Assembly: GCA_003139095.1 (NCBI GenBank)
Contig: PLHW01000008.1
Coordinates: 251,652 to 315,651, forward strand
Origin: Acidobacteriaceae bacterium
GTDB lineage: Bacteria; Acidobacteriota; Terriglobia; Terriglobales; Acidobacteriaceae
Reading direction: 5' to 3'
Length of the DNA stretch: 64,000 bases
Below, piece by piece: positions 48,752-50,752 of the stretch; within the stretch, counting starts at the first letter, position 1, and every line of letters starts with the position of its first letter. Both the position numbers and the translations under genes were made by a program. Below the pieces are notes generated by a model that saw only the letters and a list, made by a program, of their open reading frames with translations, was not told the origin of the DNA and made no database searches.

Positions 48752-50752
48752 CTAACTCGCTGGCACGCGCTTCGGAATCGCGTCCTCCAACGTGCACTCC
48801 TCCGGAGACTTATCCATCCGCAGGCCCATAAAAACCGGCGCGCGCAGCTTCATGCCGCCTTCGCTCGTCTCGTGCGTCCACTCGGAAAATTTGATCTCGG
48901 CCACCAGCTTCGGCTGCACGAAATGAACTTTCCGCAACCCGCCAATCTCGCCGTAAAACGGATTCTTCGCCGTCTCCAGCGGCGTCAACGTCGCGAACAT
49001 TTCTTTCAACGCTTTGTGATCGAAACCGGTCCCGGCCTGCCCCACATGAATCAGCCTGCGCTGCCCGTCATACAGCCCCAGCACGAGCGCGCCAAAATAA
49101 TCCCGGCTGCCTTCGGGGTCGGTATAGCCGCCAATCACGCACTCCTGCCGTCTGGTAATTTTGATTTTGAGCCACTCTCGCGACCGCGTCTCCTCGTAAA
49201 AACTGTTGCGCTTTTTGGCGACAATGCCTTCCAGTCCCTTTTGCGCCGCCGCCTCAAACAGCGCGAGGCCCTTCTCCGCATAGTGGTCGGAAAAATGAAC
49301 CACGTCGCCTTTCGTAATCAGCTCTTGCAGCAATCGCTTGCGTTCTTCCAGTTTCACGCGCCGCAAATCAAGATGGTTGAGATAGAGGAGATCGAAAGCG
49401 TAATAAGTGATCGGCACGCCCTCGCGCCCCGGCAGACGCGGCTTCCCCGGCCGAAACCCGGTGCGCTGCTGCATCAGGCTGAACGAGGGGCGCCCTTCGT
49501 CATCGAGCGCAACAATTTCTCCATCGAGAATCGCGCGGCCCGCTTTGACGAATTTTGGCAGCGTCGCGAGTTCCGAAAATTGCGCCGTCAGATCGTTCTG
49601 ATTGCGCGACACGAATCGCACCCGCCCATCGTCGATGAACGCGATCGCGCGGTAGCCGTCCCACTTGATTTCGAACAGCCAGTCCGGATTGTCGAACGGC
49701 TTCTCGATCGCCGTAGCCAGCATGGGGTTGATAGCGGTCGGCATAGCCCGCCGCACCGCACCCTCGATTTCACTCGTCGCCGCCGCTGTTTTACTGCGGG
49801 CAGCCGATTTAACCGCAGAGGATGCAGAGTTCGCAGAGGAGCTCTTTTTTTTCTTCTCGGGGAATGAGGTTGCGGCGACAACACCAGATCCGCCATTCCT
49901 CCCGCCCGTGGATTTTCCGTTCGCACCGCCGTCGCGATGATTTTGAAAGGAAGGAAGCTTCTGCGTGCTAGGGGTTTTTTCATTAGCTTTCTCTGCGCTC
50001 TCAGCGGCCTCTGCGTTTAAGCCTGCGGCCGGGACTTTTTTTTTACCCGCGGCTTTCTTGCGATCCGCGCGAGCCACCGCCTCCGCCAGCCACGCGGCCT
50101 TGAGCTTGCCCCGGCTCGCCGGACGGCTGCTCGTCCACTCCGCCGAATCCGCATCGCCCGCGATCCCGGCCATCGTGCGCTTGGTCAGAATCGAAGTGTC
50201 GTACTTCTCGATGTCGAATCCCTCAACTACATGCTCGTCTTTCTTCTTGATAAGCAGCCATTCCGTTCCTTTACTGTCGCTGCGCCGCGCTTTGATGTGG
50301 ATCAGCGCGAAATCGCCCTTCAGCCGTTGGCCATTCAGCCGGAACTTCAAATCGCCCTTCGCGAGCATCGCGGCCGCTTCTTTGTCCGTCCCCGGAACAT
50401 ACTTCCCATCCACCGGAACCGGCGACAGCGGCTCCCACGTTCCTACGTCCCAAACCATCACGGTTCCCGCGCCGTAATTGCCTTCCGGAATCGTGCCCTC
50501 AAAGTCGAAATACGAGACGGGATGATCTTCCACCTGCATCGCGAGCCGCTTGTCGGCGGCATCGAGTGACGGCCCTTTTGGAACCGCCCACGATTTCAGC
50601 ACGCCTTCCATCTCCAGGCGAAAGTCATAATGCAGCCGCGTGGCGCGATGCCTCTGCACGACAAAGCGGTGCTTCGACTTCTTCTCGACCTTCGGAGGAG
50701 GTTCGGGCGTTTCCTCGAAACGCCGTTTGCGCTTGTATTCGTCGAGAGCCAT
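48752..50752 (-). CDS. ligD: LigD-type ATP-dependent DNA ligase (phosphoesterase + ligase, no polymerase)
   Basis: The 666 residues start with a 3'-phosphoesterase domain (about 25-175; HRFVVQRHRATRLHYDFRL, GTIPEGNYGAG). A linker (about 230-335) leads to the ligase domain with adenylation Lys363 in EIKWDGYRA, DGEIVAL and EGIVAKKRNS, and a C-terminal OB fold. The usual LigD primase-polymerase domain is absent. Such ligases act in Ku-dependent end joining, but no ku gene is in the window. The linker is Ala/Lys/Ser-rich and is encoded largely by an inverted repeat (49808-50020). Confidence 0.92.
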   Translation of the reverse strand: MALDEYKRKRRFEETPEPPPKVEKKSKHRFVVQRHRATRLHYDFRLEMEGVLKSWAVPKGPSLDAADKRLAMQVEDHPVSYFDFEGTIPEGNYGAGTVMVWDVGTWEPLSPVPVDGKYVPGTDKEAAAMLAKGDLKFRLNGQRLKGDFALIHIKARRSDSKGTEWLLIKKKDEHVVEGFDIEKYDTSILTKRTMAGIAGDADSAEWTSSRPASRGKLKAAWLAEAVARADRKKAAGKKKVPAAGLNAEAAESAEKANEKTPSTQKLPSFQNHRDGGANGKSTGGRNGGSGVVAATSFPEKKKKSSSANSASSAVKSAARSKTAAATSEIEGAVRRAMPTAINPMLATAIEKPFDNPDWLFEIKWDGYRAIAFIDDGRVRFVSRNQNDLTAQFSELATLPKFVKAGRAILDGEIVALDDEGRPSFSLMQQRTGFRPGKPRLPGREGVPITYYAFDLLYLNHLDLRRVKLEERKRLLQELITKGDVVHFSDHYAEKGLALFEAAAQKGLEGIVAKKRNSFYEETRSREWLKIKITRRQECVIGGYTDPEGSRDYFGALVLGLYDGQRRLIHVGQAGTGFDHKALKEMFATLTPLETAKNPFYGEIGGLRKVHFVQPKLVAEIKFSEWTHETSEGGMKLRAPVFMGLRMDKSPEECTLEDAIPKRVPAS
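49808..50020. repeat. CCGCAGAGG inverted repeat inside ligD
   Basis: Left arm 49808-49842 (TTTAACCGCAGAGGATGCAG...) and right arm 49987-50020 (CTTTCTCTGCG...GCCTCTGCGTTTAA) are imperfect inverted copies. Both arms are read in frame within the LigD linker. Confidence 0.8.

Follow-up and report, generated by a model that had tools for sequence, protein, structure and literature searches.

A dispersed inverted repeat in the LigD linker of an Acidobacteriaceae genome, next to a candidate site of transcriptional slippage

Palindromic elements that sit in frame inside protein genes are already known from Rickettsia (as described in the available part of PMC10969869), and so are genes that depend on slippage at a homopolymeric run. 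The slippage run of the T. thermophilus dnaX gene, for instance, is nine long in the accessible sections of PMC1088944 and PMC5009743. Insertions made during transcription at A/T runs are mostly of a single base, according to part of PMC5574713, and the same portion of that paper reports no transcription error that restored a reading frame in the two species its authors studied. The accessible text of the surveys PMC3711429, PMC1088944 and PMC5009743 does not include LigD, and neither "split" nor "frameshift" occurs in the corresponding part of PMC7719229. A literature search that left supplements and preprints aside found no paper joining transcriptional slippage to LigD.

Here, we describe, in a Terriglobales-type soil acidobacterium, a LigD gene whose inter-domain linker contains a dispersed inverted repeat and, next to it, a run of nine adenines. 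It lies in what we call the window, the whole stretch of 64,000 nucleotides that was analysed. The explanation we favour, with a probability of roughly 0.66, is that the linker derives from an inserted element and that RNA polymerase slippage beside it makes two LigD products. Neither this combination in an NHEJ ligase nor a tie between the repeat and GxxExxY genes was found in the literature searched.

An inverted repeat between the two domains of LigD

The window gene joins a phosphoesterase and a ligase domain, as in the bacterial LigD proteins of NHEJ (Table 1), while Ku and a LigD-type polymerase are separate single genes elsewhere in the same genome. Its closest named relatives belong to metagenome-assembled genomes of Acidobacteriales/Terriglobales, several of them Candidatus Sulfotelmatobacter. 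The linker contains two arms of 40 nt (49799-49838 and 49991-50030) that are 75% complementary at a spacing of 152 nt, and their 30-nt core, delimited by the best local alignment, outscores all 60 codon-shuffled versions of the linker. Both arms lie in the LigD reading frame between the two domains and encode LNAEAAESAEKANEK and SSSANSASSAVKSAARS. The first-pass annotation had placed an inverted repeat here, with both arms encoding Ala/Ser/Lys/Glu-rich peptides, and was right on each point; the flexibility that it ascribed to the linker would be expected from the composition. It did not mention the A9 tract beside the left arm, the relatives with split frames or the GxxExxY link.

Table 1. Features of the LigD gene and its linker, in window coordinates
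Feature	Position	Strand	Basis
LigD, two-domain (3'-phosphoesterase and ATP-dependent ligase), 666 aa	48752..50752	minus	ORF and domain search
3'-phosphoesterase domain, residues 3-173, TIGR02777	50234..50746	minus	domain match
Ligase domain, residues 343-654, TIGR02779	48791..49726	minus	domain match
A9 tract, coding strand GGT AAA AAA AAA GTC; candidate slippage site	50036..50044	minus	sequence
TAA inside left arm, stop if one A is lost (A8)	50017..50019	minus	frame reading
TGA inside left arm, stop if one A is added (A10)	50001..50003	minus	frame reading
Left repeat arm, coding-strand TTAAACGCAGAGGCCGCTGAGAGCGCAGAG, encodes LNAEAAESAE	49991..50020	minus	local alignment
Interior between arms, Lys/Gly/Ser-rich linker, varies among relatives	49839..49990	minus	comparison of relatives
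Second A-run, A8 on coding strand, beside right arm	49845..49852	minus	sequence
Right repeat arm, plus-strand TTAACCGCAGAGGATGCAGAGTTCGCAGAG; minus-strand reading within SSANSASSAVK	49809..49838	plus	local alignment

The repeat is not confined to this gene. Allowing up to three mismatches, CGCAGAGGNCGCAGAG matches the window 14 times (5.08 expected; none of 100 shuffles reached 14), and the only matches with one or two mismatches are the two LigD arms. The shorter TTNAACCGCAGAGG was not significant in the window alone, with 3 matches against 1.59 expected and as many in 27 of 100 shuffles. Across the 5.53 Mb of the genome, TTNAACCGCAGAGNNCGCAGAG has 61 matches with at most three mismatches and the reversed control has 2. 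The repeat unit, CGCAGAGNN, recurs every 9 nt and is headed by TTTAACC; some dispersed copies face each other as inverted pairs. A search of the literature with CCGCAGAG returned only unrelated papers.

We then have the relatives of LigD to compare, all from draft genomes, many of them metagenome-assembled. From 165 relatives found, 80 were kept (81 loci with the window's own); leaving out 10 distant or fragmentary loci, 3 without an anchor, and L165, whose frame difference was produced by a 2-base N gap, took the set through 68 to 67 usable linkers. Excluding L165 shifts the counts by one and leaves the odds the same. By a codon-shuffle test (p<=0.05 per arm), the right arm is present in 49 of the 67 linkers, the left in 32 and both in 28. 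Because this test is lenient for periodic linkers (on the opposite strand, 6 of 13 Der linkers gave p<=0.05 at a score of just 13-14 of 24), a wrong-orientation control and a score cut were added. The control detects one right and one left arm among the 67 linkers; when a raw score of at least 18 of 24 is also required, 40 right arms, 26 left arms and 22 pairs are retained and the control falls to 0 and 0.

The peptides tell a similar story at the same position, with many linkers of the same genus reading LTAEnAEk ... SSANSASSAV, while arms of the CACAGAG type encode TTEDTEDTE and SSVPSVV instead. Linkers are short in the eight outgroup LigDs, 28-34 residues and 59 in one, compared with a median of 105 in 49 in-frame relatives. 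No pair of repeat units was seen in ten loci of the order's other family (L018, L020-L028). The two arms of one gene are more alike than random cross-pairs (18.8 versus 17.4 of 28; 6 of 20,000 permutations). Concerted evolution of the arms was considered and rejected, as the excess over pairings with the nearest relative's arms is not significant (+1.20 of 28, p=0.19; 28 genes).

Two other proteins of the window's genome carry the repeat in frame, so that it is found in several unrelated ORFs. In Der, a copy between the GTPase domains is read LNAENAEVAE; in an RNase R-like protein, one between the OB and cold-shock domains is read SSAISANSAV. Der/EngA linkers (L078:259-1803, minus strand; relatives L245-L257) have the forward arm in 12 of the 13 that were parsed (p<=0.018, score at least 18), with 11 of 24 not parsed. 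The RNase R-like linkers (L059:1-2175, minus strand; relatives L270-L286) differ between species in which of two opposite ways the repeat faces: at p<=0.05, 3 of the 12 parsed have the forward arm only, 4 the reverse only, 2 both (the forward score of one being weak, at 14) and 3 neither, while 11 of 23 were not parsed. The repeat has thus been turned into linker in at least three proteins.

One could object that the LigD linker is ordinary low-complexity Ala/Glu/Ser/Lys sequence that resembles the repeat by chance, and by the codon-shuffle test the right arm is indeed missing in 18 of the 67 linkers and the left in 35. We regard this as very improbable: the arms that do pass far outnumber those in the wrong orientation, near-perfect arm pairs exist (27 of 28 positions identical in L097), and the same repeat is found in the Der and RNase R-like linkers. 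Taken together, the genome copies, the arms of the relatives and the short outgroup linkers uphold the suggestion of the first-pass annotation that a dispersed element was domesticated as the LigD linker. Two findings could have spoken against it, a repeat unique to this site or the same peptide encoded by unrelated DNA in relatives, and we see neither of them. An ancient in-frame element in the LigD linker is, in our judgement, very probable.

The repeat at the borders of GxxExxY genes

The same repeat ends border a gene that codes for a protein. The genome has two GxxExxY genes (TIGR04256, PDDEXK_3). The first, L001 (L001:1456-1933), is bordered on both sides by LigD-type arms in inverted orientation; the second, L002 (L002:1501-1990), has arms downstream only, as a compact inverted pair of about 90 nt, and was not part of the flank test. 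Of 30 GxxExxY loci of the phylum, all of them usable in that test, 11 have inverted repeats between their own flanks above the 99th percentile of mismatched flanks, even though mismatched flanks score high too, since the unit is common to them. The inverted flanks of these 11 loci mostly consist of CRCAGAG-like units. The LigD repeat, which has the same ends as a GxxExxY gene, may therefore be read as a MITE-like relative of a GxxExxY element, and it is tempting to speculate that the GxxExxY protein mobilises it. No transposase was shown for the repeat, and the literature that we found mentions GxxExxY only incidentally (for example, in part of PMC8934634), with nothing on its role.

A related arrangement was observed at S23, or four-helix-bundle, genes (TIGR02436; L172-L178, L208-L236), which are bordered by inverted arrays of units of about 7 nt that differ from gene to gene, such as AGTTATC, AAGCTCC and GTCGTTA. 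Of 36 loci typed, 35 were usable, and in 30 of these 35 the own flanks lie above the 99th percentile of mismatched flanks. No paper was found that links mobile inverted repeats and a reverse transcriptase to a four helix bundle protein.

The adenine tract and the split reading frames

On the coding strand, the A9 tract lies just upstream of the left arm. An adenine run of about this length is kept among the relatives: the longest run in the linker is 9 in 38 and 10 in 12 of the 67, so that 50 have it, and at most 6 in the other 17, with the lengths 7 and 8, and any beyond 10, absent. The tract is missing even in close relatives, L097-L102. Elsewhere in the same genes, 103,887 bp outside the linkers contain four A7, one A8 and nothing longer. 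Among in-frame genes, 32 of 49 have a run of at least 9, compared with a mean of 9.15 of 49 when codons are redrawn with the usage of the linker (15 in the largest of 300 draws) and 4.05 with that of the rest of the gene (largest 13), a null that takes related genes as independent. Like the window's gene, with its A8 beside the right arm, L092 and L103 contain an A8 in the linker's second half.

The tract and the repeat are separable. Runs of at least four A precede 13 of 57 dispersed copies of the repeat, compared with 112 of 2000 random windows, and we considered whether the tract belongs to the element; this was rejected, and A9 taken as a feature of LigD, because the Der and RNase R-like linkers that were parsed contain no A9. 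There is no association of A9 with the arms on the tree, and in L132, L133 and L153 the left arm stands before A9 instead of after it. The exact order of A9 followed within 5-30 nt by AACCRCAGAG was found in 4 of 298 genomes, all four times in LigD and three times with shifted frames; the window's own LigD does not fit this exact pattern. LigDs of a different phylum, Eremiobacterota (L166, L167), also have A9 in a short linker with an other-frame stop a few codons on and no repeat.

In 22 of the 80 LigD relatives, the phosphoesterase and the ligase are in two ORFs of different frames. Without L165, all 21 are shifted by -1, with A9 or A10 where the ORFs overlap or meet. We also drew a second, overlapping sample, in which 298 genomes of the order gave 221 matches and, among the matches listed, 59 genomes with both domains as separate matches on one contig; genes covered by a single match and domains on different contigs fall outside this 59. 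Here 37 genes are in frame, 22 are shifted by -1 and none by +1 (one-way direction, 4.8e-7). All 22 shifted genes have A9 or A10 (16 and 6), compared with a run of at least 9 in 19 of the 37 in-frame genes (17 A9, one A10, one A11; Fisher 2.9e-5 for tract versus shift). The remaining 18 of the 37 have a shorter run; since three A7 and one A11 occur, a rule of 9 or 10 only is not absolute. The two samples have 12 of these 22 shifted genes in common, which makes 31 sampled split-frame genomes in all. All members of a clade of 10 species, whose domain identity falls as low as 75%, have the split frame, and at least 6 frame changes are needed on the tree.

Every LigD shift that we saw needs one added base. 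With L165 dropped, 18 of 18 shifted genes meet a stop in their own frame at most 58 nt (median 9) from the tract, and in all 18 the addition of one A gives access to the ligase frame, which is open from the tract through the linker, while the remaining two frames are closed by a stop after no more than 113 nt. Conversely, of 32 in-frame genes with A9 or A10, 31 would have their product truncated within 150 nt by one more A and 29 by the loss of one. At the level of sequence, the stops and the open frames provide for a second product in an alternative frame. By eye, the stop adjoins arm-like sequence in 12 of the 18 shifted genes (L136, L139, L140, L142, L144-L147, L149, L150, L158 and L160), as in TTAACCACAGAGG of L144. 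The repeat is scant or absent in other split-frame genes (L152, L156, G462, G321, G295, G286, G277 and G449), and the frame switch therefore does not need it.

The ribosome, rather than the polymerase, could slip on this tract if the arms formed a hairpin in the mRNA that stimulated -1 frameshifting. The direction fits, the left arm of many genes begins no more than about 20 nt past the tract, and the window's mRNA folds with its arms paired (z -2.10; 3 of 200 shuffles were as good). However, arm complementarity exceeds that of all 60 shuffles in just 3 of the 18 split-frame genes, compared with 18 of 49 in-frame genes; since it is weakest in the very genes that would need it, we do not favour a hairpin stimulator. 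For the ribosome to slip, a heptamer would be enough, yet the runs cluster at 9-10. We consider ribosomal slippage unlikely, even as the strongest of the alternatives.

Next in plausibility, and less likely again, is that the tract is a contingency tract at which replication slippage toggles full-length LigD between cells. A9 and A10 do alternate between close relatives of opposite frame, such as L162 (A10, in frame) and L140 (A9, split), in a sample that has one genome per species. Such phase variation should produce shifts in both directions, but those of the second sample all go one way, and the split frame persists through the 10-species clade with the ligase frame open.

It is also improbable that the split-frame relatives simply have two genes, with the ligase translated from an internal start of its own. 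Read in the ligase frame, the linker or the sequence after it does contain GTG, ATG or TTG codons. Against this stand the ligase frame, which is the one frame open from the tract onwards in 18 of 18 genes, the linker peptide, often similar in kind to that of fused relatives, and the overlap of the two ORFs, at most 18 nt in 11 of 21 split loci and mostly made up of the A-tract itself.

Least credible of all is that the frame differences are assembly errors or pseudogenes. The assemblies are mostly metagenomic and homopolymers are prone to error, and one of the 22 two-ORF loci, L165, proved to be an N-gap artefact. Apart from it, only L148 (= G440) is shifted and has an N gap, of 27 bases, and there the peptide after the gap stays in the phosphoesterase frame up to the tract. 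Errors would hardly give the same direction and a tract of A9 or A10 in 22 of 22 genes; accession prefixes point to many sequencing projects, four shifted genes are on contigs of 218-834 kb, and the ligase sequence is conserved in the wholly shifted clade.

A proposed route to two LigD products and its relation to known systems

Slippage by RNA polymerase, which we hold to be the probable source of two LigD products on the basis of these frames and tracts, could have come about as follows. Early in a Terriglobales-type history, an element bearing palindromic ends of the type found around GxxExxY genes would have entered a short LigD linker and, as the comparison of relatives suggests, stayed as coding sequence, with one end read as LTAEDAEDAE and the opposite end as SASSAVK. 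At A9 or A10, the polymerase would slip in a fraction of transcripts and thus obtain two products from one gene. The short product would be the phosphoesterase with a short tail, ending at a stop usually within 150 nt and often at the edge of a repeat arm or inside it; the long product would be the full phosphoesterase-ligase. Where the templated frames are fused, as in the window, slippage would make the short product, while in the 31 sampled relatives with split frames one added A would make the full enzyme. The two products would form in some ratio, and the short one may have a job of its own.

We would give even odds to the broadest form of the proposal, in which the domain content of an NHEJ ligase is set by programmed RNA polymerase slippage, a GxxExxY-type element serves as linker and stop signal in many species, and GxxExxY (and S23) genes are the coding members of an element class that has inverted arrays of 7-9 nt units at its borders. 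If slippage does occur, it would provide a testable recoding switch in double-strand-break repair, by which a cell with a single gene could adjust how much end-trimming phosphoesterase it makes relative to complete ligase. An apparent split or frameshift in a LigD gene of these genomes may then hide an intact gene. Moreover, the repeat offers a case, traceable on a phylogeny, of a dispersed palindromic element that entered the linkers of several housekeeping proteins outside Rickettsia, and the link between the CRCAGAG repeat and GxxExxY is a handle on a widespread repeat and a protein family.

Among the known systems, the Rickettsia palindromic elements (RPE) of PMC10969869, in the part of it that is available, are similar in architecture, being dispersed palindromes in frame inside protein genes. 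The LigD repeat shares with them its dispersal (61 matches versus 2), an inverted repeat at the insertion and a presence in several unrelated ORFs. It is unlike them in its GxxExxY ends, its position in inter-domain linkers of Acidobacteriota housekeeping proteins and the slippery tract that it adjoins in LigD. Prokaryotic MITEs with a coding partner also have many short copies and inverted ends, but the ends of the LigD repeat are arrays of 9-nt units. A small ORF within a selfish insertion is likewise found in the 23S rRNA intervening sequences that encode S23 protein (described in part of PMC4990558), a family whose genes in this phylum have inverted flanks; the protein family and the location differ from those of the GxxExxY repeat, and the parallel is one of architecture only. 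Finally, dnaX of T. thermophilus resembles LigD in its run of nine A, its two product lengths and its nearby stops in other frames, as far as the accessible sections of PMC1088944 and PMC5009743 describe them. In contrast to dnaX, LigD is a repair ligase and a predicted case of slippage, the templated frame of some relatives gives the short product, and the stops are often at a repeat arm.
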